Shown here: positions 1 to 50,981 of the stretch, piece by piece | Numbering within the stretch: the stretch's first letter is position 1 | How the letters are laid out: the number at the start of each line of letters is the position of its first letter | Position numbers and translations under genes: made by a program | Notes under the pieces: model-generated | Told to the model about the DNA's origin: nothing | Databases searched by the model: none | The model's input: the letters and a program-made list of their open reading frames with translations, nothing else | From: Hericium rajendrae | Lineage: Eukaryota; Basidiomycota; Agaricomycetes; Russulales; Hericiaceae | NCBI GenBank assembly: GCA_033439255.1 | Contig: CM065888.1 | Coordinates: 248,001-312,000, forward strand | Direction of reading: 5' to 3' | DNA: 64,000 nucleotides

Positions 1-310
1 CGGTACACTTGATTGTTTGTACAAGCACTCGGCATTCTACAATTTCTTCGCAATAAAACAGCAATCTAGGATTCATCATCCCTCTCTTCCTCCTCTTCGG
101 ACTTCGTTGACTCGGGGGCCTCGGGCTCGGGCTCCGGTCGCAGCATCTGCAAAGAAAACGAGCAGCCCTTCAAAATGCAGAGCAATTGTGTCTGCCCACC
201 TGATGCAGCTTGAAGTGGTTCTTTTTATCCATCCTGACCTCGTTATTGAATGCCCTAGATATGCTCAAGCATATGAGCACCATGCGGGTACGCACAACCC
301 GCAAACGAAC

Positions 311-1341
311 TCACTCTCTCATATTCTCCCGCGTCTTTGCGTACTCAAGCCCGTCGCCCATCCCGCCAATGACGCCCATCGGCGTCTCCTTGATGCCCTT
401 GAAATCCCGCGGGTCGATCGGGATGACGGCCATCGAGCTGCGCTCCTGCCCATCGGGCCCGCGCCGCGCCGCAGTGAAGTAGATACCAACGTAGGCGACC
501 TTGGTACCTTGCACTTGCTGCGTGCGCACCTGCTCGACCAGCCGCTGCGACACGCCACGTACCTCGTCCAGTGGCGCCGCGCGGGCCTTCATCACCGTGA
601 ACGTCATCATCTCCGGCGGACGCTGGGTCCCGGGCGCGGGCGCGTCGCCGCGCATGAGCGCGCGCAGCTGCGCGATGAGGTCGACGGGCGTCATGTCAAC
701 GGTGAGGTGCAGCACGCTCTCTGTGACGTGCTCTGGGTGCTCATGCAGCTCGAGCGCGAGCACGGCGCAGGAGTGGAGATATGTCATCAGGAAGTCAATT
801 GTCACGACACGCTCGGCCATGCGCAGCGCGACGGCGCCGTTGTCCGGGGCGATGCAGTGCGGCTTGTGTGTTTTCCTAGTGGGCGGGGTCAGCAGTGCAT
901 GATGTCCTACAGATGGACGGAGCGCACCAGTGTTTTCGCTGACACTGCGAAACACGGAGAAGGTCAGCAGGCTGTCGCATGGCTATGGATAATTCCTACC
1001 TCTTTATCGCAATAGCTCACAGACTTGCACTATCAAGGAAAACGCGATAGGTCTGGCAACCCACCATAAACAATATTTTCGACGACAACACGTACCTGAG
1101 CACACTTTTTCGCGTCTCCGCGCGGCATCTCCTTATCGCAGGCCGCACAGAGTGCCGTGAAGGCAAGCGGGGCCGCTCTGCTGCGCGCCTTGGCTTCCTT
1201 GCGGAATGCCGCCGTCGCCGTCGCGTACTCCTCGTCCAGGCCTGGGTCGATGAAGCTCATCATCGGGATAGTGTCCCCGTCTGGGCGCGGGCGCGAGATG
1301 ATCGCCACGCCGTCTTCGGGGTAGTGAGAAATCGTAGACAT
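311..1341 (-). CDS. MYND-type zinc-finger protein (splicing partly unresolved)
   Basis: I read the ATG at 1341 as the start (MSTISHYPEDG...). The first exon ends with a Cys motif, CAAC followed by 11 residues and KKCAQ. A GT donor lies near 1098, and the next acceptor (near 940) continues with CQRKHWCAP, so the zinc ligands follow the C-x2-C-x11-C-x2-C-x5-C order of a MYND finger. The HKPHC box in the following exon supplies the last ligands. A conserved-looking C-terminal domain of about 190 residues follows (VVTIDFLMTYLHSCAVLAL to GDGLEYAKTRENMRE), of the type found in many uncharacterised basidiomycete MYND proteins. The Cys pair between the second and third exons could not be joined cleanly. 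An acidic tail (EPEPEAPESTKSEEEEE) encoded at 66-146 follows a good acceptor but is one base out of phase with the obvious GTGAGT donor, so it is left out. Likely an intracellular protein-protein adaptor; specific function unknown. Confidence 0.55.
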
Positions 1342-1377
1342 GATGGGTATTCGTGGGCTATAAGTTGGAGGGTCCAA

Positions 1378-1983
1378 GAGGAGGCGACGCGACGCGTCTT
1401 GTAATAAATTTCGCTGTCACGGTCGCCACAGGCGCGTTTCGGCATCTACCGGGTGCGACGCGAGAGGACGCGTGCGACGTAAGAATCGTGGTGGATTCTA
1501 CTCCCCTGCCTAACCACCCCGAGGTTTAAAAAAACTTGATGCTTAGGATTGAAATATGGAGCCATAGGCCGTCGCCTGGTCATCAAAATCGTCGTCGATG
1601 TTCTATCACAGTGGCCAACTTCAAGCGCCGCTCGACTCGCGCGATCGGAGGCAGTCGCGTCTCGGCTTCCGCCGATCATCCCAGCTCCCTTGCAAGCTGC
1701 CACTGCGGCCAGAAGTCGACGCTGCCAGTGCTCCCGAATACCTTTTGCTGCAAATTTTGGAACCGCACGCTCGTTGGTCGCGTGTATTGCCTAGGAGCTA
1801 CATCTCAGCTTCGAAATTCGCAGCAGCGAATTGCCGGCGCGTTTTGCTGTGCTTGGTGACGACATCGAGTTCATAGCTGGCTAGCCCGGTAAGTGATGCG
1901 TCTGTCCACTCCCATAAATATACGGCCACCTTACAATCTGTATTGGAGGACGCGCGTTTAGCATCGCTCTGTAGGCTTCCTGT
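1378..1983. other. intergenic, no gene recognised
   Basis: Divergent upstream region between the MYND gene and the F-box gene. Short open frames exist on both strands, but none has splice signals or protein similarity that I recognise. Confidence 0.4.
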
Positions 1984-3569
1984 ATGAGCGGCTCAATGGC
2001 AAATCAACCTCTTCTTATGTTTGGAGGTGCCAGTCAGACGAGGATCCCATCAGTCTCACCCATATCCCAGCTCCCCACTGAACTAGTCATACGGATATTC
2101 TCCTCCTTGATCGATCAGGAGCCCGCGGACGATGGGTCGCTCAGACATCCGAATGCGGAGTGGATGGTCTCCTGCGCGTGTGCAAGCTTTGGCGCGCCAT
2201 CGCAGAAAACAGCGCGCAGCTCTGGTTTCGTATATCCTCTCCGGACCCCAGCTTCGTAGCTGCCTCTCTCTCCCGATCTAAGGCTCATCCTCTCGATATC
2301 AAGCTGCACGGCGATTATACAAGCATCCCTTTCGAAACGTGGGAACTACGATGGTGGGCCATATTGTGCCACGTCCACCGCATCCGTCTTCTGGACATGG
2401 AATTCGCAGATGGCGATCAATTTCTTCTGGTCATGGAAGAGATTGTCCGCATAGGCGGTATGCCTATACTCGATACTCTGATCTTGGGATCTGTCGAAGC
2501 TCATGATTCAGGACGACTGGTCAATTCAGCATCATTTGAACGTTGCATGCCCAGCTTGCGCATTTTGCGCGTGACAGATGGTGTTGCTGGGATTCACTTT
2601 TCATCCCGCACATTCTGCAACTTAACCGCCCTCGAGATGCACAATGCAGAGTGGTGGATAGAGGAGGACATGTCGACATTCGTCTCCTGTATGAAAGAAT
2701 GGAATCGGCTTGAAGAGCTCGTCCTCGTTGACTCCTTGCCTGGCGCCGATGTCAGTAGTTATCCCCTACCGAACCCGCAATTCACCATTTCCCTCCCTCA
2801 TCTTCGTTACATTCAGTTAGAGGATCCCATCGTCTATCCCGACTACTTCCTTAGACATTTCGAGCTCTTGCCAACGACTTTCGTCCACCTCGCATGCGCT
2901 GTGTGGGATACGCCAGGCAGCGAATACGAGTCTTTGACGGCGATTATCCGGAGCCTCGTCTCGTCTATCTCAACGGGTGTCCTCAAGTCTATCCGCGCTT
3001 TGTACCTCCATGACGACAATCATCTGATCGTCCGTAGCTCTGTTGTCGCCCATCTTGGGGGGAAGGACCACCTGCACGGGTACGCTGGAAGACTGAGCCT
3101 TGTTCTTGATAATCTAAGAGAGAAACCGTCAGCTTGCGATTTCCTCGGCGTTGCCCCAGACAACAATACCTTCTCTGGTGTGGAAGTCTTGCATATTAGC
3201 ACCAGAAATGCACCCATCAGATCGGAATGGAGGGCTTCCTTGCGAATGGTGGAGAACGTCAAGCAGGCTTTGTTAACTGGTGAAAGCGAGATGCTGAATG
3301 GGTTTATAGATGCCCTCGGAGAGGTTCGTGGATCTGATAGGCGTCCTGGAACTGGAGGATTCTGCTTGCCGAGGCTGGAACAGCTCACTGTGGCGTATGA
3401 CGACAGTTCCATGGGCGACATCCTGCTGTGCGCACTAACGGCGCGTCGTGATCACGGCATTCCGCTTCGCAAACTGGTACTGCAACTGAACGCAGATGGA
3501 CCTGGGATTTGTGAGGTCGAGGAATCCCTCCGGTCAGTAGTATCGGAAGTCGTCATAGACATGATGTGA
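1984..3569 (+). pseudogene. F-box protein, single-base frameshift inside the F-box
   Basis: The first 60 residues from the ATG at 1984 contain the first half of an F-box (ISQLPTELVIRIFSSLID). The second half (LLRVCKLWRAIAENSAQLW) is present but in another frame, starting around 2165. No GT-AG pair of credible length can bridge the change, and one missing base near 2164 would make the whole F-box continuous. Downstream, about 450 residues stay open with an LRR-like, F-box-family C-terminal region ending VVSEVVIDMM and a stop at 3569. F-box proteins recruit substrates to SCF ubiquitin ligases through Skp1; basidiomycetes carry large, fast-evolving sets. A fragment with the same C-terminus lies at 7873-8094. 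Either a recent pseudogene or a sequencing error; the length of the open frame argues that any lesion is young. Confidence 0.65.
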
Positions 3570-4956
3570 TGGTGCTCGTCCGACAAGGATGATCGATGAT
3601 TCCTGAGTGTCGTGAGTGCCTCATGTTCAATCACTCGTATCATCTCGTTGACCATCCTATTGTAGATGAGCTTACGATGCTCGTAGTACGCGGAAGCACG
3701 ATACAGGCCGAGTTATCGATGCTCCTCCGACTTCACGAAACGAGGGGATAGATCTGGTCTATCTTTCCATAAAGTCGGACACTGGAAATTTCTGTGTGCG
3801 CACATACTTTTCATGTAAGCCTCTGGCCCGCCTCGAAAGCACGCGCTATTGCTTGATAACGCGCGAATCCAGTTCTGAAACCCGCGGCTCCACGGTCCCG
3901 TAGCCATTTTGTCCTGCGGGACAGCAAGCACGATACACACGCGTTGCGATGAGCACCAGTGATCGTGCCCGAATGAAATGCATGGGTGAGCGGAGTTAGA
4001 AGAAGCGCTGCAATACAGGGCATTGGGCCAATGGGAGCACTCACGAGGCAGAAGGGAGCCCAAACGGAACACGCGATGCGGACGCCACTAATGAGACAGC
4101 AGCGTCGTGGCGTATTCTGTGCCTCGAAGAATACGGACTGGAAAGACGAACAGGGCAAACGCCGTAAGTGGATAAGACGATCATGTATTCGCTGTGAACA
4201 AGCCGAGGGCGCAGAGTTGATCGAAGCGGGGGACGATGGTGACACAGAAAATACTGTAGCATTAAAGGACTGTGTAAGAATGAACAAGAAAAACGAAGCG
4301 CGAAAAGCTGGAATTGAACCCCCCAGTCACGAACGGACTGGGCCATACAGAGTGCATGTTGCAACAAGATGTAACACTGAATACTGTATTTGGACGCCAT
4401 GGAGTCAATACGAGGAAGCAGTAAGGCGACGGCGAAAATACCGGAAGTCATATCGATTGGATGCCCAATGCCAAGCCGTCGACCGCGAAACACCTAATAT
4501 GGCGAGAACCTGCGACGTGGTTTGTACCTCACTTGAGGGCCAATACCCCCCACGGAAGGCAAGTCGCTGATCTCCTTAGGTCGGCGCTGGCCACGACGCG
4601 AGACCGTGGGGTACGTGCAGGAAATGCCGCGTTTGGCACACTGGCTGCAATGATGATGGAGCGATAAGGTGGTCAGTATGAGTAAAACGCGACGGGTTGA
4701 TTAAAAAAAGCGCGAACGGGAGGAGAGAGAAGTCAGCCCCTCTGATGGGAGTGATAAGTGCGAAAGGGGTAGCAGGAAGACGAGGCGGAGGGTATAAAAC
4801 CTGCAGAGCTACAGGCTTCGTCACTGCAGTGAGCAGGACGTGTCCCCCCTCGACTTCAAACACTCTGCACATCGTAGCCAGACCACTCTGTCGCGCTTTC
4901 TCGTCTCTCCTCTCTCCCCGCGCTTTGGTCACCAACACCGATGCAAATGTAAGTAC
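3570..4956. other. intergenic, no gene recognised
   Basis: Short overlapping open frames on both strands lack recognisable similarity. Around 4305-4360 the minus strand carries sequences resembling RNA polymerase III A and B boxes (GGCCCAGTCCG and GGTTCAATTCC), but they are too close together and no cloverleaf can be drawn. Confidence 0.35.
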
Positions 4957-37892: not shown

Positions 37893-37953
37893 TTAATTTG
37901 AAATCTACGATTTCCGTCGAGTCCGATAAACTCTCCAGAAGGAACCCTTTCCA

Positions 37954-38258
37954 ATGTCAACACATGAGTTATCCGAACCACCACGATCGCCGCCTGCGTC
38001 GAATGGGGCGAATCCTCCACCCGCGGGAACACAGCAAACGCCAGTGCAAACATCCGACACCACTATCGAAACTCCCGCGAGCAGCCAGCCAGGTGGCGAA
38101 TCACCGCCGTTCGGAAGTCTGGTCGTCCAAAAGTGTCTCCTCTCCGCACAACGCTTTCGTGGAGGGGAGTATTCGCGCGAGGAGGCCATGTATCGGATCT
38201 TCGATACCCTCGGCCGAGCCAATCAACCTCAAGATGTAGAACTGAAGACGCACCAGTC
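37954..38258 (+). pseudogene. DIRS gag, N-terminal part (interrupted)
   Basis: ATG at 37954: MSTHELSEPPRSPPASNGAN..., Pro/Thr-rich, then FGSLVVQKCLLSAQRFRGGE and EEAMYRIFDTLGRANQ. About 101 codons are in frame before the inverted repeat of the inner element begins. Basidiomycete DIRS gag proteins have this layout. The frame continues a little into the inserted DNA and ends at 38355. The rest of gag is at 47132-48154. Confidence 0.75.
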
Positions 38259-38281
38259 GACGGTCCCTTCCCGAACCCTAC
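38259..38281 (+). repeat. left terminal inverted repeat of inner element
   Basis: Begins GACGGTCCCTTCCCG and ends AACCCTAC; pairs with 47109-47131 at 20 of 23 positions. Confidence 0.75.
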
Positions 38282-39303
38282 CGGAGGGGCAGGCCCTCCC
38301 CCGTCCCGGACCTCGAGAACCCCACGGCGCGTGCCGAACCCGATCTCGGACGTGAGACCGACGCGTCGCGCTGACGCGCTGACGCGCCGGCGCGAGGCTG
38401 GAGCGTGTCGCGGTCGGGGAGGTCGCGTCGGGGAGAGCGTGTGTCGGGGAAGCGCGTCGGGGACCGCGCCGAGCGCGCCGAGGCTGGTGGCGCAGGGCGG
38501 GAAGGAACGGCGGGTCAGAGCGGCGCGTAGATAGGCAGTTACTGGGGGGAAGGAGCGGTCGAAATTGAGTGTAAATCGGCGCCGTCGTGCGCACCGTTCG
38601 AAGGCCCATGAGAGCACTTCCAGCGAGAGCTGTGGGGGGAAGGAGGGGACGCAAGCCTCCACGCAAGGACAGGAGGAGGGGACGGACCTGCCAGCGAAGC
38701 GAACAGGCCCGGGGACCTCGGCTGAGGCCACGAAGGGCCACAAGGCGCCAGGGACGGCGCCTGCATCGAGCGCCCATGACGAGACTGTCGTTCTCCCACC
38801 GAGACTGTCGTTCGTCCGGCAGGTAGGGGGTTTCCTCCCCCCTCCTCTGACGCGCTGTCTGCCAGCAAGGCCGAGCGCGAACGTCGCGCTAGCGCGACGA
38901 ACGACAGTCTCAATGGCAGTCCCTCGCCTCCGGGCGAGGATGACCAATCTTCCTGCCAGCCCAAGGTCGTCTGTGTCCGTGTCCGCCTCTTCCTCTCACC
39001 ACCATCTCTGGCTGCTGTAGCTGTCAGCCTGCCATTCCCTCCATTGCCCATTGCCGCGCGTCCCCGTACGTTGACACTTTCCGTGCCCTCTCGGTCTCCA
39101 GGTTCCCTGATCGCGGATAGCAGCCCCGACGCGGCTGCCAGCCTTTTCTCCCCGTGGTTCCCTCCTGCGACAACGCCCAAGCGTGACCCCGACGCGTGAA
39201 GTTCGTGCGCTGTCGTCTTTAAATCGAAGCGGCCGAGCGCGAGTGCGCCCATCTGCCATCCGTCACCTTCCCTCATCGGCCAAACACGCACACTGCAAGC
39301 AGA
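38282..39303. other. GC-rich left arm of the inner element
   Basis: No gene called; the long open frames here on both strands follow from high GC content and few stop codons. It holds four closely spaced TCGGGGA motifs (about 38415-38465), a direct repeat GAGACTGTCGTTC at 38781 and 38801, and a perfect 16-nt inverted repeat (38801-38816 with 38896-38911). Such subterminal arrays are common recombinase or transposase binding regions. Confidence 0.5.
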
Positions 39304-41141
39304 ATGGCTGCGCGTGGCCTTTGGTCGGTGAGTACATGGCCCTTCATGCCGTTCTGCGGCAGATGCTGACGTCTGCGTCTGCCGGGGCTCGTCACCAGAT
39401 CCTTGAACGATCTGTTGCGCACTCCACGCTGTCCAAGCTCGCAAATGACAAATATCCTGTCGACAAGACGGGCGGCCGCCCCACATTTGCGCTTGGCGTG
39501 AATGCCAGGTGAGTTGAAGGAATCCATGCCAGGCTACTCGCAGCCGATGCATGCCAGGCTGACGCTGCATGCGTGGTCACCGAACTTACCAGCGGCTGGG
39601 TACATCAATGCCAGCTGCAGTACCAGCCGGTGATCACCCACGCAGCCCAAGGGCCTGAGCTCGCCACGGCCTTCGCGTGCCTGGCGGGCCTCCTGGCCGC
39701 GCCCGTCGTCCCGATTTTTGTCTTCGACGGCCTCGCGATCCGTGACCAGAGGCAGCACAAGATGGCCACGCGGCGCACGCGCCCGCTCGAGCATGGCTTG
39801 CGCCAGCTCATCGTGGCCTTCGGCTTCGCCTGGTACACGGTGCGTTGGCCGCTCAACCGAGTGCGTGTGCACTGCGCTCACTGACAGCTCGACATCTCAG
39901 GCTCCCGGCGATGCGGAGGCTGAGCTCGGTCGGCTCAATGCCAACGGGCTCGTTGACGCGGTACTGAGCGACGATGCACGTGCCGCGCTTTTCGGTGCAC
40001 ATACGATCGTGACCAGGTCGGTGTCCCATCCCCTGTCGCTGATCGGCGGAACATACTGACCGTCGGGCACGGGTGGTTTCTTTTTTTTTTTTTTTATCTT
40101 TTCCTATAACTGCTTCTCGACATGGCCCTCAGCCAGAGATCTGAGCATTGCAGCAGCGACATTGTCGTGTGCTCTGTGCCGCCCATGTCGGAGGATAGTC
40201 GCTCGTCGCTCACGCGCGGGGGGCTCATCCTGTACAGGCTCCTGCAAGCAGCCGATCTCACGCAGGTGGGTGCCCGAAGTTCACCCTGCTCATGTTGATG
40301 CTGACGCCACCCCACACGAACATGGAAAACAGGCGCACACGCGGAAGTTCAGCGAGCCACTGGCACGGGTGCTCGCAAGCACGGAACTCGGTGATGACCT
40401 CCTCAAGGCGGCGGGGTCTGGCAATGTCCGCCAGCAACAGCAGGCTCTTGCGGCCTGGCGTGGCGCCCTCTGCGACATGCTCCGCACCAACTCGGGAGGG
40501 CTTCTCAAGAAGCCCTACCCCGCCCTGGCGGACTCTGTCCCAGCGGTGTTCCCGACGCTAGGCGAGGTCAAGCGGTACACGGCACCCCTCACGTCGTGGT
40601 CTGCAGGGTCAACCCCTCCGCATCACACTGCCATCTGTCTTCGGCACCCGAACATGGAGATGCTCGTGCTTCGCTGCGAGCAGCATTTCGGCTGGGAGAC
40701 CAGCAAAGAGATTGATGGCCACTTCTGGCCCTTGGTCTGGCCAGGGGTCTTCCTTCGTGAGCTTCAGATGCACGTAAGTCGCCTCCATTTTATTGTGCGC
40801 CAGACATGCACTTATTGCGCTCTCTGCGCTTTCCCACAGGATCACCTTCAGTCTCCCGCACCGGCTGCGGCCATCGCAGTGTCTGCGGAAAGAGCGGGCG
40901 GGGGCGACAGCGCTGCCCGCATGCTCCGCGTTCAATACGATCCCAGTGGATATGCAATGTCAGTACATCGGTCTTGGAGCACCTCTGGCCTGTGACTGCT
41001 GCATCTGTGATCCCGATGCTCGGGGATGATCTCGCCGTTGATGACGAAGGTGGGCTGCTGTCGGTCAAATCGATATGGGTGCCGGCGGCACTGCTCGAGC
41101 GAACGTGTCCCGCGCTCGTGGAAGCCTTCCAGCAGCTGTAG
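39304..41141 (+). CDS. XPG/FEN1-family nuclease-like protein of the inner element
   Basis: Start at 39304 (MAARGLWS, the XPG N-terminal GLW motif), intron from 39328, then ILERSVAHSTLSKLA... and FALGVNA, where the family has the catalytic G-I/V-D-A; here Asp is Asn. A very short GT-AG gap (24 nt) or a frameshift follows, then QADAACVVTELTSGW, PVVPIFVFDG, and after an intron the XPG-I motif APGDAEAELGRLNANGLVDA-VLSDDARAALFGA. Further exons: LTRGGLILYRLLQAADLTQ, RKFSEPLARVLASTELGDDL-LKAA, HPNMEMLVLRCEQHFGW, FWPLVWPGVFLRELQ, and SIWVPAALLERTCPALVEAF with the stop at 41139-41141. XPG-I keeps D-A-E-A-E and SDD but loses the following Asp (DDAR for DDVD). The protein is a PIN-fold nuclease relative whose activity is uncertain. 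A 17-T tract lies in the intron at 40080. Confidence 0.78.
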
Positions 41142-41371
41142 CTTCGCACCTTACCTACCATTATTTCTCTTTCTTGTGTATCCCTACAATGTAGCTCCCT
41201 CCCCCTTCTGTCTGTAGCTGTATTTCTCAGGTCTCCTCCCTCTCTGTAGCTCGCAATCTATGGACAATCTTTATAAGATGTACACTGGCAAATGGGGGCC
41301 TCTCGAGGAAGGTACATGAGAACAGTAGGAGTAGATAGCACAGGATAAGTATGAAAATGTGCTACTGGCCA

Positions 41372-43157
41372 TCAAGCACAGAGGCACTTGCGGCCACAAC
41401 CCGAGCAGAAATCCCCTGTTTGCTTGTTTGGGTTGAAAAAATCTTCCCGTTCGACAGTCTCATCTGTCCAAGAGAGGAGGTACTTGAATATTGTGCCCGT
41501 GTCCTGGTTCTCTGACCAGCCACCCCAGCTGCAGATCTTACGGATGGGCCATCGCAAGGAGGTGGCGAGGTACTGACAGCCGCCGCGACGGAAGGAGTGT
41601 GTGCCATACAACCGCGGGTCGATGCTGATGTCAGTCATGTTGTTGCGGAAGCATTCGAGAAATGATTCGGGGGACTGTCGTGCAGGGTCAGCACTCGAGC
41701 TTCGACCTGAATCATGGGGTTAATGATGTGCTCACCATTCCTTGGTCCGGTACGTGACTGAAGCGGCCCGACTTCACTTTCTTGCGGAAGACGAAGCCAC
41801 GCAAGGGGCCATTGCGGTTGCACTCGATCCAATCGCAGACGGCCGTGACAGGATCTAGCCATGGCCGTTCCTTGTCCGCGTAGAGCACGAACGGCGCGAT
41901 GCCTGACAAGCAAACCATGAGTTCCCAATGACACCATCAAGAAGAATTGTGAATGCACGCACCGCCAGTCTGATGAGTCTTTCGAAACAGGATGGTGATG
42001 TGAAGGCGCTGCGGGCACGACGGCGTAGCGCGCTCGACCTTGAGCCAGTGCCATTCAATGTGGAGGGCCTCGTCGAAGCGCAAGAGGCACAAAAATGCGA
42101 TTGCGTATAGGGCGTTCAGCATGATGCGCACATCGCGCGATGCCCACTCCTCTGGGTGCTCGGCCTTGCGCTTCCTCGACTGGGGTGCATACGTGTCCTC
42201 TCGAAAGTTGATGTTGTACTCATACAGCATGCGAATTGTGTCCTCAGAGATCGCGCGTGCGCTCTGGACGACCTCACCTGCTCGAGTCTATGTGGGAGGC
42301 ATCAGACTAGTCAGCTTCTTGGCTGCGAGATCACAGGAAGCACATGGCATGCTCACCTTCCGACGACGCAAGCTGATCATATACTGCGAGACCTCAAATG
42401 ACAGCGATGGGTTGCCGAAGTAGCGGCCGGGGCTCAGCGGGTTCTCCACCCATGCCTGGACGCCCTTGCGCAGCTCACGGCCGAACTTGTGGCTGATTGC
42501 CGCACGCATTTTCTGAGCATAGCCGTACGATTTGCGTGACTCGGTCAAGGGCTTCGGCTTGTTGGTGTACATATCAAGCTCATCGCACCTGTCAAAATGG
42601 AAACCAGGATGTCATCAGCCAATCACAGGAAAGTTCGCCGCAGTCACAGAGACTGACTTCTGCATGATCCATAGTGCGATGTATGTGGCAAGATTTCCCG
42701 GAAGGTCAGCGCCGTTCACCAACACTTCCAGCTCATCGGTGCTCCCGACGAACTCGGACTCGATGCAGAAGGCAGTGAACTGCTTCCAGAGCCTGCGAGC
42801 ATGAAGCGGTCAGTGCTGATCCCAGAGCTGGATGGTTGGAGCACCTGCATGTACTCACCTTTGGTACTCATATAGGGTGTGCGAAACTACAGCCTGCTCG
42901 CTCGCCTTGCGTAGCGTGTCCTCGAGCATGTCCTGGGCCAGCCTCGCCCTCTTTGCTGTGTTTGGAGGGCTAGGCGGGGTGTTGTCATCGTTGTCTGCCA
43001 TCCTGATCAGGTCGACATTCTCCTCGAGGCTCTCCATCTCCTCGACCACCTCCTCGACCTCATACTCGTCCGTCGTCACAGAGGCTTGTGCAAGGCTGGC
43101 AGCAAGGGCCTGTGGGTCGCTCTGTCGCTGCATGCCCCGTGGCTCTGATGGAGACAT
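41372..43157 (-). CDS. Crypton-like tyrosine recombinase with C-terminal Cys knuckle
   Basis: About six exons. N-terminal acidic region (EVEEVVEEMESLEENVDLIR), SAM-like core-binding exons (LWKQFTAFCIESEF, NKPKPLTESRKSYGYAQKMR, FEVSQYMISLRRRK) and catalytic domain: FLCLLRFDEALHIEW (Arg I), LFRKTHQTGG (Lys/His region), APFVLYADKERPWLDPV, FVFRKKVKSGRF, THSFRRGGCQYLATSLRWPI (HxxR), WGGWSENQDTGTIFKYLLSW (Trp and the Tyr nucleophile). The complete R-K-H-R-W-Y set is present. It ends FCSGCGRKCLCA, a C-x2-C-x3-C-x-C knuckle. The start at 43157 (MSPSEPRGMQRQ) is the first good ATG; an upstream ATG at 43280 is possible. Presumed integrase/excisionase of the inner element. Convergent with the nuclease gene, divergent from the SAP gene. 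Confidence 0.85.
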
Positions 43158-43403
43158 GAAGCGGCTGGTAGGGCAGGTGGGTTGGTGACAGGATGGAAGA
43201 GCACTCGGATGCGTCGCATCAGGAAACGGGTTGCGATCCAGCCAGTGAGTGCAGCCGGAATCGAAACGGCGCCGTTCCACTTTGTGAAATGAATTGAGCG
43301 GGGCCTTTCACTCGACGTGCCGTCCAGCCCGAGCTCCAACGTACCACAGTCACATCTTGAACCGTGCTGGATAGCAATTTCCAGCACTGTCCTTCACCGA
43401 GGC
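43158..43403. promoter_or_regulatory. shared promoter region between recombinase and SAP gene
   Basis: 246 nt between two divergent start codons; both genes must be driven from here, which would couple recombinase and SAP-protein expression. No clear TATA. Confidence 0.45.
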
Positions 43404-45358
43404 ATGATGGACCCTCCAGCAGCAGAAACCATTGAGCTGCCTGTCATCGGGCAGACGCTGCAGGGCGACGGTGAATTCGAGACGGAATTCCTGGTCATGT
43501 GAGTTCCACTAGGACCAAAGTCCATGCACGGGCAGGGTACTGACCTCACCCCTGTTCCTGCTAGACAGCCGAGACCGACGAAGGCGAAGATGAAGCATTA
43601 CCTGGTGGCATATGACCTCAAGCGGTCGGGGACAGCGGAGGAGATGCTGCAGGCACTGAAGGCCTATGCATCTGATAGAAGCCGGTGGATCAGGCAAGCC
43701 CTCTCCCGTGGCATGGCTCAGCCCTCTTACCTGCACTGACCATTGCTCCCTCATCTCAGTCAGTTCCAGGCCGCACACACACGGGTGCATGGCTCGACGA
43801 CCGGTACACGTGCCGGCCGTTCCTCTGCAAAGCGACGCAAGGCCGCGTTTGGAGGAGATGACGACGAGGCAGTCCAGTATCCAAGCAAGAAGGTCGCCAT
43901 CAGCCTCCCAGACCACCGGACACCAGAGGATATCGACGAGATGAGAACGATCGTGCGTCGCAACATCCTTTTTTTCCATGTCCTTCTTGCCCCACACTAA
44001 CACCTGGCACAGGCGCAGGAAGTCGTCACTGCTGCACGCATTCAACGCACTCATGTGCAGCCCACGGCACAGGGACTGCACCCCACGGCGATGACACTCA
44101 CAGCCGATGGCGATGGCGAGACTGCTGCCACTGAAGATGCTGCAGGTGAGGCCATTGCGGAGAGGACGGCACATGCTGAGGTATGTATGCATCCTCGACT
44201 GCCTTGTGACTTGCCGTCTCCATCTGACTCGGCCCCGGGCTGATTGTGATGTCCCTAGCTTGGCCGCCAACGGCGTGAGCTCAAGCAGCTGCGACGCACC
44301 ATGGAGCTTGGCATGAATGGTATGCACCAGCTGCTGCTGCTCAACCTGACAGCCGCAAACAATTCTCATCCCTATCGGAGCCCCTCTGCTGAGGTGCTGC
44401 AGCCGTCCCCTCACATGCTGCCAACACCACTGCCCGAGTGTACAAGGACAACGAGCAGTGCCTTCCCCTCCCCTGCGACATCGATCGGCCCTCAGCAGCC
44501 ACACAGCAGCGACGGCGGCAGCACCAATCGCAGCGTGGGTACAGCACCTTGTGCAGCTGCACCGTCACATGCTGTTGCTGCCTCCCGCTTCCAGAAGCCC
44601 TCGCAAGGGCAGTTGTTCTGTCTGCGCCTTGATGACGGCGATCCGGGATCAGTCGTCTCGTACTCGGCATCGGACTTACGAGACTGCAAGGGGCTGCCCA
44701 GCATCTCATTTGCCAGCGACGTCACACAGCTTTTTCGTGACTGGTACGACTCTGACCTTGTCAAGCTTGGTTCACCGCAGCGGGGCATCCCCATCCGGCT
44801 GTGGGACACGCTCTTCAAGAAGAGGACAGGGCTCATGGATTCCAAGGCCTGGGACAGCTTCCGGTCCCAATGGCATGGCTGGAAGGTCAGTACGGCACCT
44901 TGACACGCCTGTCCTGCCCGATTGCCGATACTTACCGTGCTCGTTGACAGTACATCATCGAGAAGTACGAGGCACTCGGGCGCAATGAGGCAGCATTCTG
45001 GCTGCGATTCACGTCTGAGAAAGGCACTCAAATGGGCTACCAGCAAATCCTCGACGCACTCAAGCACGAGCGCATGAAAGCTCGAAGCGATCTCTCTGTG
45101 TACGCGGAGCAGGCAAAGCGGTTCTTCGATGGCGACCTCTGGCGTGCAGGTGATACCTTCGTATACAAGAAGTCAGGCAAGACCTCCGTATGCTCGAAGC
45201 CCGATGTGATTGCCACTCGCTGGCTGAAGCTGCTCGAGGACGACCCCGCCATGCGCGTGCGCTGGGAGGAGTCGCTTTCCGCGGCGCCATCAGGATCGGG
45301 CATAGACTGCCCAACGGGAGCAGTCTCTCAAGAGGGCATGGCCACCTCCCCATCATAG
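43404..45358 (+). CDS. SAP-domain DNA-binding protein of the inner element
   Basis: Start at 43404 (MMDPPAAETIELPVIGQTLQ). Exon 2 has a SAP-type helix-extended-helix: KMKHYLVAYDLKRSGTAEEM with LQALKAYASDRSRW. The next intron appears to use a GC donor (ATCAG|GCAAGC) and ends in CTCAG. Later exons give a basic region (SSAKRRKAAFGGDDDE), a helical segment (LGRQRRELKQLRRTMELGMN), a Ser/Thr/Pro linker, and a conserved C-terminal domain: LFRDWYDSDLVKLG, IPIRLWDTLFKKRTGLMDSK, WDSFRSQWHGWKYIIEKYEA, FWLRFTSEKGTQMGYQQILD; stop 45356-45358. SAP domains bind AT-rich DNA. The W-rich C-terminal part recalls the GCR1_C-type DNA-binding region that Cryptons fuse to their recombinase, here apparently on a separate polypeptide (inference). 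Confidence 0.72.
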
Positions 45359-47108
45359 CTAGTTGAACCTCTTGTTTTGCTTCCTGTGCCATATCATTAT
45401 TCGCTATTCACGTGTCATATTCTTATTCATCGTTCTGCTCTCGTCCTGCTATTACTCGCTCCGCTATCTCGTTGCCCTTTGCCATTGCATCTCCCTACTA
45501 CCATACGAATGTTCGGTACCCTTGTATAAAGACAGATGCTATATCTAATTACAGAACAAGCAGAGCTACTCTCGAGCTATGGCCATATTTCATAGCAGGA
45601 ACCGCAGGCACTGCATTTGTCTCCTTATTGGGTGAACACGGCTGCATGTCTGCTACAAGGCCTGTGAACAAAATGAATTCTAGAGTTCTGAGTTTCCCAT
45701 AGAATCAAAAGATTATTTCTGTATACGAGTCAATGGTATCTACGGAGTACAGCAAAATCAACTTCATTTCACTTTTCGGAGAACTGAGTGCCTTGCTGTG
45801 GTACCACTCACTCCGTCGCGCATTGACTTAGCACATGCGGAGACTTGGCCTACACCTTTCGAAAAAAATTGGCCGATACATATTTTCAAGCCTCAGATTA
45901 CCGTTTTAAGGGCCTGGAATTCTCGATATGATGCTAGTTTTGCTTAGGATTAGACAGGCAAAAAGATGTCGAAGGAGCGCAGACCCTGCAGCACGGTTTT
46001 CTCACACTTGAAGCTTGATGCGAGTGCGCGCTGCAGCGGCCGGACAGCACCGTTACCGACTACTCCATCATTCATCTGATTCTGGTACTATCTGCAGACA
46101 TTCTCACTGGGCCTGAACACCCAACTGCCTGATGATATTGCAAACTACATAACTACGTACTACCTGTATGTGTCTAGCTACTAGGAAACCAGCTCTTTAG
46201 CCCCCATCGTATGTACACCGCTACGGCTCTGCATCATCTATCACGACCCTCTGCGGTACAGCTCCGTGCAGATCCCACCCCTCTGCGAGCCATGAAGCGC
46301 CACGCTCGAGCCTCCTCGAGAGCTCTGCTACTGAGGCAGGCTGGATGGATATTGTCGGGTCGCGTGGGGTGGTGATGCATGGTACCATCGCGAGAGATGA
46401 GGCAGAGTGCCGCTGCGGCACCACGCGGTCACGTTGGGTCCGGCGCAGTCGGTCGGATGCACGGGCGAGCAAGGAAGACAGTGGGCGGTGCGTCAGCAGA
46501 CGATGGGGAATGGCGAGAGTCAGCAGGCAAGCACGAGGGCGACGCATGACGGGGCGCTCGCCTGGCCTGGTTCTGGCTCTGCGCACGTTGCGGACAAGGC
46601 AAGGCGGGCATCCGCGAGCCCTGCGTCGTCGCGGAAATGCGACCATCGCGAGGTCGGTTCGCGGTGGGGCGGCGATGCGCAATATGCGCGATACCATCGG
46701 TCGGGTCCGCGGCACTCGATCGGGTGGTGCCACGGGGCGACGGGGCGTTAGCAGGCGTGCGGACGGACGAGCATCACCACGAGCACTCACCTGGTTCTCG
46801 TCTTGTCCTGCGCCTGCTTTTCTCGTTCTGCGCGTCGCGGACAAAGGGCGACCGTCGCGAGGCCGTGCTCTCGCCGGAGCGCAGCGCCCAATTCGGCACT
46901 TTGGGTCAAAAACGCGTGCGGGCCGCGGCCAAAACGGCGAGCGTGGCGGCGACGGGGCAGATGCGACGGATGGGGCAGCGCGAGCGGGAGGAGAGGGCGG
47001 AAGGGCGGAGGCAGACAACGTCAGACTGAGCCACGCGCGGACGGGCGTCTGTGGGGTCCTGCGCGCGGCTGACACATGCTGACTCAGCAGAGACCATCGT
47101 CCGCGCGC
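45359..47108. other. right arm of the inner element, gene-free
   Basis: 45359-46200 is AT-richer 3' flank of the SAP gene. 46240-47100 is very GC-rich, so long frames occur on both strands (46221-47075 and 46345-47082) without domains. A motif close to CGCGAGG/GGTTCGCGG is repeated with variants around 46640 and 46855. Confidence 0.4.
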
Positions 47109-47131
47109 GTAGGGACCGGGTAGGGACCGTC
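47109..47131 (+). repeat. right terminal inverted repeat of inner element
   Basis: Contains two copies of GTAGGGACCG in a row and ends GGGACCGTC; complementary to the left end at 20 of 23 positions. Confidence 0.75.
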
Positions 47132-48154
47132 AATCCGCCCCTAGAAGTCGTCTTCCAAGCCGCTAGGTTGTATATCGACATGCTCGACAAGATCGTCGCC
47201 GAGCAACGCTCTGCCGAACAACGCGGAAGAGCGACAATTGGCGACACTAGTGTCGTCCAGCCAATCCTGGACGACGACCCGCGGGCAGAGATTGCAAGCG
47301 TCTCATCGCCAGTCCGGAGTAAGCGCCGTCGTACCGAGCTCGAGAGCGATAGCGACGACGACGACGGCGATCGAGGCGGGAAGTGCCCGCTGGATCTCTC
47401 GGCCCTGCCTTGGATGCAGGATGTCCAGCCAATTTCATTGCCCCCATCACTCGCCGACACCAGGAAGCTTCTCCTGCTGTTCGCAGAAGAACCCAAGCGA
47501 TGGAAAACCTTCTTCATCAATGAGCCAAACTGCCCTCAGTTTCCCGACACTGAATGGAGCAACATTTTGCTCGGAAGACCGGTCAACCTCGACTCGGTTC
47601 TCGCATCTCTGTTCTGCATCACCCTCGAACACAAGCATAAGGAACGACTTGGACGGGTCAGTTTTGCGCTCGACGACGTCGCACCATCAAAAGTCGTTCG
47701 ATCGCAAGGCGACTGGCTTTCGGCCTGGAGAGCTGCCTCAGACGCCATCAGCTTCGTCTTCCGTCACCGACGAGATGAGCTTGCGCTGTACGGCAGTCAC
47801 ATCTCCTCGTTGTTTACATCGGTCCTGGAAGCCAACCACGCTCGAGTCCTCTGCTATGACAAAGCAGTGCGCTTACGGGTCTCCGGTCGACGAGACTTGC
47901 TCCTCACCGATCTCAGCCAATTCTCCGATCTCCACACCCTTTGGCTGTCTCCCCTCGGGGCCGGACCAAGCGCTGGTCCCTCGCGCTCTGGCGGATCTCG
48001 CCCTGCTGCAAAATCTGCCGGTAGTAAAAAGGAACCCTGCCGGCGCTGGAACGACGGCAAATGCCCGTTCAATGCACTCACTTGCAACTGGGGTCACGTC
48101 TGCCTCAAATGCTCAGGACAACACACTGCCAATGCCTGCCCGCAGCGCAGCTGA
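47132..48154 (+). pseudogene. DIRS gag, C-terminal part with zinc finger
   Basis: Continues gag after the insertion: NPPLEVVFQAARLYIDMLDK, an acidic linker (ESDSDDDDGDRGGK), a helical capsid-like region, and a C-terminal Cys/His cluster CRRWNDGKCPFNALTCNWGH followed by CLKCSGQHTANACP. The open frame runs from inside the inner element (an ATG at 47051) to the stop at 48154, so a truncated Gag could still be made from a promoter in the right arm. The last 23 nt overlap the RT start. Confidence 0.78.
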
Positions 48155-49991
48155 GGAAGAATATCTTGTATCCCCGCGACACCGTCTTGGACTCGTTTGG
48201 ACCCTCGATGATCCGTACACATATACGCCAGCTGCGGATTGGTCATTAACGGCTCCGCCTCTTCCTTCTCCTCCCGAAAACGAGGAGAACAATTTCGTCC
48301 TCCATTGTACTATTTCTGAGCATCCCTCGCTCTTTAAAAATCCATGTAAAATCAACTGCGATGCATATGAAGAATTTTTACAATTCCATCCCAATGTGGC
48401 CTTCGTCGAATCTGTCTGTCGTGGTCTGCGCGGGGGCTTCTGGCCTTCGGCTATCACTGACAGACCAGGTTATCCGATCACTTGGGATAACTCCCGTCGT
48501 GAGTTATCATCCGATGCCCATCGAGCATTCGTCGAGGAACAATGTCAAAAAGAAATTGATGTCGGCTGTTTCTCTCCAGCATGGGAGGCCGACGAACTTT
48601 ATCCGGGCATGTACAGCATGCCCATCGGCGTCATACCAAAGCCAAATTCCGACAAACTGCGCCTCATCACAGACCACAGCGCCGGCAAGTACTCGCTTAA
48701 TTCAATGATTCCAAAGCCGAGTTTTGATGAAAAAGTACAACTCGACAATGTCCAAGACCTCAGGCGTGTCCTCCTTCGTGTCCGTCATGAGCACCCCGGA
48801 CGAAAAATTGTTCTATTCAAATCCGATGTCAAAGAAGCTTATCGCCAGATGCCTATGCATCCCTGGTGGCAAGCACGCCAAGTCGTCTCCATCAACAATC
48901 GCCGAATGGTAGACCGTGCGAACGTTTTCGGCGGTTGTCACTCAGGCAACATTTGGTGTGCTTTCATGAGCCTCGTGCTCTGGATCGGCGTTTATGTCTG
49001 GTTCATCTCCGACCTTCTGGCCTATTCGGACGACACTTTCTCTTGGGAATTTGCTGATGCGACCACCTGGTACGCTCCGTATGGCCGCATGTTCCCCACT
49101 AAACAAGCTCGCCTACTCCTGCTTTGGGACATTTTGCACATCCCGCACAGCCTCGAGAAGCAAACTCACGGATCGCTTCTTTCCATTATCGGTTTTGAAG
49201 TCGATGCCGACCTCCTGCAAATCACGCTATCCCCCGAGTGGCGTGCTGCCCTGGTCGCTGCCATCCGTGACTTCATTACGGGATCGTCTTCGTGCCATCG
49301 TCGCCCCCTACGTCAATTTCAAGCTCTAGCCGGCTACGTTCAATGGTCGTTAAACGTTTTCCCGCTCTTACGGCCCGGTCTTTCACGGTTGTATGCCAAG
49401 ATTCGTGGTAAAACCAACCCCAGTGCACCAGTCGAAGTTACGGTCGCTTTATGCGCTGAGTTAGCATGGCTCGCCAACCATATCGAGCGTGCTTCGGGAG
49501 TGTTTCTGTTCGATTCGCTCGCCTGGCGTCCTGAGGACGCCGACCTCATTCTTCTCACCGACGCTTCGTTTGAGGGTCTCGCATTCTGGTCACCGTCACA
49601 TTCCCTCGGTTTCCACTGCCGCCTACCCAACATCGCTGCCACCATTTTCTTCTGGGAAACATTAGCTGTCGTCTGCGCTATTGATTGGGCCTCTCGCTTG
49701 CAACCCACTCGTCCCCGTCGACTCCTCATTCGTTGCGACAATACGAACACCGTTGCTCTCTTCAACTCCCTCCATGCACAGCCTCAATACAACAGCCTCC
49801 TTCTCTATGCCGTCGACCGCCTCATTGACAGCAAGATCGATCTACGTGTTGTTCACCTCACTGGTTCCACAAACGGTGTCGCTGATGCTCTTTCCCGTTT
49901 CCACGCTGATCGTGCCACCACGCTCCACCCTGGACTCAACACTTTTGATTTCATACCCCCTCGGGATGCGCTGGGGGTACCCAAATTATGA
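48132..49991 (+). CDS. DIRS reverse transcriptase-RNase H
   Basis: ATG at 48132 inside the 3' end of gag (overlap 23 nt, different frame) gives about 619 residues. RT motifs: GVIPKPNSDKLRLITDHSAG, VLFKSDVKEAYRQMPMHPWW, VFGGCHSGNIWCAFM, the active-site LLAYSDDTFSW (YxDD), and LSIIGFEVD. RNase H: LILLTDASFEGLAFW (first Asp), FFWETLAVVCAIDWA (Glu), LLIRCDNTNTVALFN (Asp), and GSTNGVADALSRFH (last Asp). DIRS RTs make cDNA that is circularised through the split repeats. Frame fully open; the stop is TGA at 49989-49991. Confidence 0.92.
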   Translation: MPARSAAEEEYLVSPRHRLGLVWTLDDPYTYTPAADWSLTAPPLPSPPENEENNFVLHCTISEHPSLFKNPCKINCDAYEEFLQFHPNVAFVESVCRGLRGGFWPSAITDRPGYPITWDNSRRELSSDAHRAFVEEQCQKEIDVGCFSPAWEADELYPGMYSMPIGVIPKPNSDKLRLITDHSAGKYSLNSMIPKPSFDEKVQLDNVQDLRRVLLRVRHEHPGRKIVLFKSDVKEAYRQMPMHPWWQARQVVSINNRRMVDRANVFGGCHSGNIWCAFMSLVLWIGVYVWFISDLLAYSDDTFSWEFADATTWYAPYGRMFPTKQARLLLLWDILHIPHSLEKQTHGSLLSIIGFEVDADLLQITLSPEWRAALVAAIRDFITGSSSCHRRPLRQFQALAGYVQWSLNVFPLLRPGLSRLYAKIRGKTNPSAPVEVTVALCAELAWLANHIERASGVFLFDSLAWRPEDADLILLTDASFEGLAFWSPSHSLGFHCRLPNIAATIFFWETLAVVCAIDWASRLQPTRPRRLLIRCDNTNTVALFNSLHAQPQYNSLLLYAVDRLIDSKIDLRVVHLTGSTNGVADALSRFHADRATTLHPGLNTFDFIPPRDALGVPKL

Positions 49992-50021
49992 ATTTCCCCC
50001 CCCCGCTCAGCTAGGCAACCT

Positions 50022-50981
50022 GTGCGCGAAGCCTGGCCACACGAGTGGCTACTGCGCGAGCGCGCCATCGCGCTCGGCTTTGCGCTTCGCAACTCCTCCC
50101 TTCTTTCTTATTCTTCTGCTCTACAGTCCTATCTCAACTTCTGCCGTACCCACAACATGCCCATTGAACCCTCCGAGGACACTCTTTCCTTCTATCTTGT
50201 CTACACCTCCCATTACATCCACCCCAGCTCTGTCTCAAATTACCTTTCTGGGATTTGTAATCAATTAGAGCCCTTTTTCCCCAACGTGTGTGCCATTCGT
50301 CACTCGCAACTCGTTTCCCGCACGATGCGTGGATGTCGCAAACTTCACTCCTCAGCCCCTACATGCAAGAGCCCGTTGTCACGTACCCAACTCACCGAAG
50401 TCTTGCTTCGCTACGCCAACAGCTCCTCCCTTGATGACCTCCTTTTCGCTGCACTCCTTGCCACCGGTTTTCATGGTCTACTTCGCCTTGGTGAATTAGT
50501 CTGGCCTGACCCACTTGTCCTCCGTGACTGGCAACGCGTTACCACACGACATTCACTTCAATGGATGCCCAACGGCTTTTGCTTCCTCCTTCCTACCTCG
50601 AAAACTGATCGTACTTATCAAGGGCACGACATCCTCATTGCTGGTGTTCCATCTGCCTGTGATCCCGTACGCCCTTTTCGTCGCTACCTTACCGAACGCG
50701 ATCGCCTCTTCCCCTTCCACCCCAACCTTTGGTCACGGGCCTCGGGCGACGTTCCCACCTGCTCTTGGTTCATGCGGCGCTTGCGTGCCCATTTTCCGTC
50801 TGACATCAGCGGTCACTCCTTGCGTGCTGGCGGCACTACTGCCCTGGCCGAGGATGGTATCCCTCTTGACTACATCCAATTCCTCGGTCGCTGGACCTCC
50901 GATACATTTCAGATCTATATTCGGAAAAATCCCGTCATTCTATGCTCCCTTCTTTTTCAGACCAGCAATCCCACTTCCTAG
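50022..50981 (+). CDS. DIRS tyrosine recombinase
   Basis: Core-binding part YSSALQSYLNFCRTHNMPIE, SVSNYLSGICNQLEPFF; catalytic part FHGLLRLGELVWPDPL (Arg I), FLLPTSKTDRTYQGHDILIA (Lys), SGHSLRAGGTTALAEDGI (HxxR), IQFLGRWTSDTFQIYIRKNP (Trp and Tyr nucleophile). All catalytic residues are present. The frame is open from just after the TGA that ends the RT and is in the same frame as RT, but it has no ATG until Met 46. An ATG overlapping the RT stop (ATGA at 49988) would open this frame only if the nine-C run at 49996-50004 were eight. Integrates the circular cDNA by site-specific recombination. Confidence 0.88.
   Translation: MREAWPHEWLLRERAIALGFALRNSSLLSYSSALQSYLNFCRTHNMPIEPSEDTLSFYLVYTSHYIHPSSVSNYLSGICNQLEPFFPNVCAIRHSQLVSRTMRGCRKLHSSAPTCKSPLSRTQLTEVLLRYANSSSLDDLLFAALLATGFHGLLRLGELVWPDPLVLRDWQRVTTRHSLQWMPNGFCFLLPTSKTDRTYQGHDILIAGVPSACDPVRPFRRYLTERDRLFPFHPNLWSRASGDVPTCSWFMRRLRAHFPSDISGHSLRAGGTTALAEDGIPLDYIQFLGRWTSDTFQIYIRKNPVILCSLLFQTSNPTS

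Follow-up and report, generated by a model that had tools for sequence, protein, structure and literature searches.

Tyrosine recombinases (YRs) exchange DNA strands by way of a Holliday junction, and to our knowledge little is understood of how the YR-based DNA transposons of eukaryotes find their ends and complete strand exchange. Among such elements, Cryptons are described in the main text of PMC3212892 as carrying a YR gene and no reverse transcriptase, and as having short terminal direct repeats that are the presumed recombination sites; these repeats are 4 or 6 bp long, with 6 bp in most fungal Cryptons and 5 or 6 bp in CryptonS. The same text describes them as lacking inverted repeats (a Mariner composite excepted), assigns a GCR1_C domain to CryptonF and an added C48 peptidase gene to some Cryptons, and does not mention XPG. 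Starships, which are also fungal, are YR-driven (PMC12134995). In a 64-kb stretch of the Hericium rajendrae genome (G000:C11:248001-312000; hereafter the window, to which positions refer unless a contig is named), we describe an element at 38238-47148 that we read, from sequence comparison, as a Crypton-like DNA transposon in which a YR would perform exchange at a 6-bp core, a tryptophan-rich (W-rich) partner protein would bind the ends and a relative of the resolvase GEN1 would bind junctions without cutting them. We give this reading a probability of about two in three (0.66).

The ends of the element were placed by comparison with empty sites. The element lies within a host repeat that has uninterrupted relatives at three other places (C12, C6 and C10) in the 46.8-Mb, 19-contig genome that we searched. 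Excision of exactly 8911 bp (38238-47148, which includes one copy of the core) left a sequence with 67, 69 and 65 identical positions per 100 in ungapped comparison with the three relatives, all of which support these ends, and shifting the excision by 1-6 bp either way lowered identity to 46-56 per 100. The sequence left by this excision, CCTCA-AGATGT-CGTCTTCC, has the frame and length of the relatives. The core reads AGATGT on the left, target side (38232-38237, + strand) and AGAAGT on the right (47143-47148, + strand). A second, colinear copy (copy 2; G000:C1:3904086-3913027, 8942 bp by the same end rule) has exact AGAAGT on both sides, 21 bp (left) and 11 bp (right) from the inverted repeat as in the window copy, and this is the sole 6-mer common to its 60-bp flanks. 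TAGAA, a 5-bp sequence repeated exactly in the flanks of the window copy, was also tried as the core; it needs an 8905-bp removal and fits less well (52, 55 and 49 per 100).

An earlier, sequence-only reading of the window had placed the ends at imperfect 23-bp terminal inverted repeats (38259-38281, + strand, and 47109-47131, - strand). These repeats are real, with 20 of 23 positions matching, a score not reached in any of 300 shuffles of the 300-bp ends (best shuffle, 19), and about 8 bp of them is retained in copy 2 (ACGGTCC, both ends). As element ends they are ruled out by the empty-site and copy-2 comparisons, which put the true ends 21 bp (left) and 17 bp (right) further out, so the supposed terminal repeats are in fact sub-terminal, an outcome that the sequence-only reading had itself named as one that would refute it; likeness between the two copies and the left-end fragments L026 and L028 also extends past them. 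The short terminal direct repeats typical of Cryptons are present, with one mismatch in the window, exactly in copy 2 and as a candidate pair in a third locus (L071, described below), and in all three the inverted repeats lie inside them. This anatomy fits Crypton-type recombination better than cut-and-paste transposition. The element does have inverted repeats, and these, sub-terminal as they are, may set it apart from Cryptons.

The unit is real and mobile. As the sequence-only reading had proposed, it sits inside another repeat and moved as a block: it is inserted in a host repeat found at three other places, and all three of its genes recur on G000:C1, in copy 2, with the same order and orientation and between flanks without likeness to those of the window copy. 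A DNA search of the genome returned 25 matching pieces, the two full copies among them (both counts are lower bounds), with one-ended or internal fragments on C1, C2, C3, C9, C13, C16 and C18. The pieces L025-L028 and L023, considered as short copies with both ends, proved to be one-ended remnants and an internal piece, respectively. Left-end remnants without right ends are found at G000:C1:1990k, C13:206k and C18:363k, of which those on C13 and C18 retain the outermost bases and read CGAAGT and AAGGT at the core position. A stretch to the right of the W-rich gene in the window (45622-46051, AT-rich by eye) has no match in copy 2 and is represented by fragments on C2, C3, C9 and C16; it is possibly a nested insertion. 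When the genome was searched with the proteins, all 9 matches to the W-rich protein, 12 of 16 to the recombinase and 10 of 18 to the GEN1-like protein fell in the two full copies. The further recombinase matches (C2:1929k, C3:1708k and C6:3127k) and the further GEN1-like matches (three places on C2, C14 and C18) are not close to one another.

Splice-aware reading confirmed three multi-exon genes in the order first proposed, with 16 introns of 60-116 nt, 15 of them GT-AG and one GC-AG. The YR gene (41372-43157, - strand; exons 42859-43157, 42658-42792, 42357-42588, 41963-42287, 41736-41902 and 41372-41674) and the W-rich gene (43404-45358, + strand; exons 43404-43498, 43565-43693, 43760-43952, 44013-44180, 44259-44885 and 44951-45358) diverge from a common 246-bp 5' region (43158-43403), an arrangement also found in copy 2 and L071. 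In the protein collection, 326 relatives of the recombinase were found at E ≤ 1e-5 among 8000 scored candidates; among the 120 listed, those that carry a name look nearly all Agaricomycete, Physcia stellaris being at least one that is not. When 17 of these 120 were aligned with the window protein, the catalytic R-K-HxxR-W-Y residues, the motifs LLR, RKT, THSFRRGG and GGW, the tyrosine and a C-terminal cysteine motif proved to be conserved with few exceptions. Pfam gave the window recombinase a weak, sub-threshold match to Phage_integrase (PF00589; E 0.076) and no match to DUF3435, which we take to be the family of Starship captain recombinases, and it found neither a DUF3435 nor a DDE family in any of the three predicted proteins, in line with the original assignment of a YR. 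The element is fungal and YR-driven like Starships and differs from them in the missing DUF3435 match, its 8.9-kb size and its three genes. When the window, copy-2 and L071 proteins were placed in one tree with the 120 listed homologues, a set that includes no named Crypton sequence, the element recombinase grouped with Artomyces and Peniophora proteins (support 0.97) and then with Dentipellis and Stereum (0.95), all Russulales, which makes a host from this order probable. IMG/VR scans with the recombinase and W-rich alignments returned no relatives.

The partner protein, first described as a SAP protein, is indeed encoded by a separate gene that accompanies the recombinase; its SAP match is below the Pfam cut-off (E 0.024, 14.7 versus 23.9 bits), and Pfam does not list SAP for the corresponding copy-2 stretch. 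The conserved part of the protein is a W-rich domain of about 190 residues, for which we found no Pfam relatives and, in the PDB, nothing or a chance-level match. No homologue of the W-rich protein was found in the protein collection at E ≤ 0.001 among 8000 scored candidates, in a search that is insensitive. GCR1_C, the DNA-binding domain of CryptonF, was looked for and not found (Pfam did not list it up to E 5 for either the recombinase or the W-rich protein, nor up to E 10 for the W-rich domain), and the element is therefore filed as Crypton-like and not as CryptonF, on a comparison with Cryptons by description. It has in common with Cryptons, including CryptonF and CryptonS, a YR gene unaccompanied by a reverse transcriptase, short terminal direct repeats and the existence of members with an added gene. 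It differs in that GCR1_C was not detected, in that its partner is encoded by a separate, divergent gene and has a W-rich domain that belongs to no known family, and in the nature of the added gene, which is GEN1-like.

When prokaryote genome contigs were scanned, the recombinase alignment picked out a sole locus, L071 (VBAU01000226.1), which is filed under a Bacteroidetes metagenome-assembled genome and, judged by its recombinase, appears to be stray fungal sequence. Here a W-rich homologue (26% across residues 325-495; within-contig E 9.4e-12) diverges from an adjoining recombinase, and the pair is bounded by exact 14-bp inverted repeats (125-138 and 4757-4770 of the contig; more copies of the repeat at 363 and 488) and by candidate direct repeats, AGAATT at 103 and 4777. 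Of 20000 flank shuffles, 0.175% produced a 6-mer common to both sides that differed from AGAAGT at no more than one base. In the tree, the L071 recombinase joins that of Physcia stellaris (support 0.94), on a branch distant within the family. Because the pair is found there without an XPG gene, the recombinase and the W-rich protein look like the core of the element. Used as a query against the H. rajendrae genome, the L071 W-rich domain found one match elsewhere (E 0.13); this search was insensitive, as it missed the window copy too. The gapped palindrome CGTTnnnAACG occurs 15 times across the 4.7-kb L071 element (109-4782), against 0.065 expected by shuffling; it does not occur in the window locus (L001) and is absent from the top palindromes of the window and copy-2 elements. 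The L071 copies may serve as binding sites, or they may be palindromic repeats of a dispersed kind. The contig stops about 100 bp beyond the proposed element on either side, as it would if assembly had broken off at a multi-copy element.

The third gene (39304-41141, + strand; exons 39304-39327, 39399-39508, 39593-39839, 39901-40016, 40133-40265, 40333-40773 and 40840-41141) belongs to the XPG family, as first proposed, and is closest to GEN1. XPG_I scored above its gathering threshold in the draft window model and in the copy-2 stretch, and the best PDB match was Chaetomium GEN1 (CtGEN1; 5cnq, E 1.2e-19; 5cnq and 6grb both about 1e-19), followed by XPG (E 2.4e-7). No homologue was found in the protein collection at E ≤ 0.001 among 8000 scored candidates; this search is insensitive, since the protein missed there matches CtGEN1 in the PDB. 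In the CtGEN1 numbering of PMC4695337, the set of seven active-site acids is incomplete in both copies, which have D38→N, E120→D and D143→R. The window protein retains four of the seven (D79, E122, D141 and D199), and the copy-2 protein additionally has E122→D and D199→H. D38 and D143 are retained as D at three other GEN1-like loci of this genome. These loci (L058, G000:C2:3205k; L063, C18:169k; L065, C14:875k) have intact acids at the aligned motifs, and two of them are closely alike; they represent a host GEN1 and possibly other mobile copies. The D→N replacement found here in nature affects the residue that crystallographers changed, in the same way, to inactivate human GEN1: the D30N form, which loses cleavage of junctions and flaps, was the one used for crystals (PMC5039027). 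In PMC4695337, each acid-to-alanine mutant of CtGEN1 bound almost as before and was impaired in cutting. Compared with these two resolvases, the element protein shares the family match and several acids and differs in having two catalytic acids replaced in both copies and in being encoded by a mobile element.

We compared the ratio of nonsynonymous to synonymous differences per site (pN/pS) between the two copies. It was lowest for the recombinase (0.26, bootstrap 0.21-0.32; 415 codons), the best conserved of the three genes, followed by the W-rich gene (0.37, 0.30-0.45; 321 codons) and the GEN1-like gene (0.42, 0.35-0.50; 289 codons). By this measure, the GEN1-like gene shows purifying selection between the copies. 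Taken with the replaced acids, this suggests that the gene has been kept though its product is probably unable to cut; the protein probably binds Holliday junctions without cleaving them.

Together, these comparisons suggest a mechanism in which the YR would excise and insert the element by strand exchange inside the 6-bp core of the AGAAGT type, probably by way of a circle. Such a circle would have one inverted repeat on each side of the core, the two facing opposite ways, as is known for recombinase arm sites. The W-rich protein would be the DNA-binding partner that recognizes the end region, and is the best candidate reader of the inverted repeats. The GEN1 relative would bind the Holliday junction made by the YR and, lacking two catalytic acids, would leave it uncut; its effect could be to steady the junction or to bar host resolvases from it. 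We tentatively propose, at well under even odds, that a catalytically dead resolvase of a eukaryotic transposon binds the four-way intermediate of its own YR, shields it from host GEN1-type enzymes and steers it towards completed movement.

Several observations weigh against this reading. The left core of the window copy differs from the right at one base, which fits exchange between the element core and a similar target, or later mutation. For copy 2, any shared 6-mer in the flanks is expected by chance at 21%, and the flanks are unique, so that this copy offers no empty-site proof; in L071, any shared 6-mer occurs in 15.7% of shuffles, and of the three left inverted-repeat copies tried, the outermost alone gave one. 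L071 has no GEN1-like match (best E 1.7), and the roughly 3-kb loci around the three other recombinase matches in this genome give a best W-rich match of E 0.38 and no GEN1-like match nearby, which counts against the trio as a general arrangement. The placing of D38 goes through the paralogues, as the direct alignment with 5cnq begins at residue 54, and CtGEN1 D38A alone is described in PMC4695337 as only mildly impaired, so the proposed inactivity depends mainly on D143→R. One pair of copies underlies the pN/pS values, the codons counted are those of reliably aligned blocks, a selection that favours conserved parts, and synonymous sites are near saturation (pS 0.61-0.66). Finally, the window GEN1-like gene shifts frame near 40960 relative to copy 2; the last ~60 residues of its protein are either out of frame or spliced in an unrecognized way.

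It is possible, though considerably less probable than the reading we prefer, that the GEN1-like gene is a captured passenger with no role in movement and that the recombinase and W-rich protein alone matter. Its absence from the L071 pair, its pN/pS, the highest of the three, and the out-of-frame end in the window copy all agree with this idea; set against it, most of the frame is still open in both copies, at a dS of about 1.3 and a pN/pS of 0.42. The sequence-only reading had instead seen a nuclease for processing flaps or a replicative intermediate, which would make the gene product an active enzyme that acts on flaps or junctions formed in transposition. We consider this unlikely: the XPG_I score, the resolving enzyme CtGEN1 as nearest solved structure and the four intact acids of the window copy speak for it, whereas the two carboxylates lost and the E120→D change in both copies, the further replacements in copy 2 and the intact D38 and D143 of the three paralogous loci speak against it, and flap processing is unsupported. 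The suggestion of a three-part transposition machine thus holds in part, with the nuclease step probably not among its functions. A check on whether the three genes co-occur found the trio in the two copies of this genome and, elsewhere, the recombinase/W-rich pair alone in one contig (L071). As a transposition machine the trio is unproven, because outside this genome only the pair was found and because the three other recombinase places showed neither partner.

Very little probability attaches to cut-and-paste movement by a DDE-type transposon that ends in terminal inverted repeats and duplicates 6 bp of its target: the inverted repeats exceed chance and 6-bp repeats flank the element, but gaps of 21 and 11 bp part the inverted repeats from the direct repeats outside them, which they do not abut, the best conserved gene is a YR, and Pfam found no DDE family in the three predicted proteins or pieces of them, which were the element frames scanned. 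Equally improbable is a block of host genes that was duplicated or joined by rearrangement without any transposon, for which the finding of two full copies (a lower bound) might be cited, since the copies end at homologous points without sharing flanks, one interrupts another repeat exactly and L071 has a similar anatomy.

Genes for an XPG-type nuclease occur in some AcademX transposons, and the transposase of Academ transposons is of the DDE type. PMC10045372 assigns a helicase or a nuclease to the Academ lineages and target duplications of 3-4 bp to AcademX. The present element differs in its YR and 6-bp repeats and in the absence of a DDE family from Pfam results for its three predicted proteins. 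With DIRS and Ngaro elements it shares a YR, and it differs in that no reverse transcriptase is found among these three proteins. Titles and abstract openings in the PMC literature gave no description of such an element, and the portions of PMC3411680 and PMC10799480 that were covered mention neither Crypton nor XPG.

The host repeat consists of an interrupted reading frame to the left of the element (37930-38231, + strand) and, to the right (47149-50981, + strand), a reverse-transcriptase-like frame and a recombinase-like frame, which we label DIRS-like by inspection only. Pfam found no family at E ≤ 0.01 in 47145-49988 and PF00589 below its cut-off (E 0.0011) in 49992-50978, which leaves that label unconfirmed. 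The best alignment between the element recombinase and that of the host repeat had an E of 0.83. Scans of the 64-kb window with Rfam (gathering thresholds) and for tRNAs gave no match.

With this element, a class of mobile DNA that is still poorly understood gains a lineage whose cores are defined and which has inverted repeats resembling arm sites, a partner protein whose domain is undescribed and, on one of its branches, a candidate junction-binding protein. Parts defined in this way make the mechanism testable with purified components. The element also suggests that a share of the numerous unassigned 'DNA breaking-rejoining enzyme' genes of mushroom-forming fungi may belong to such elements.

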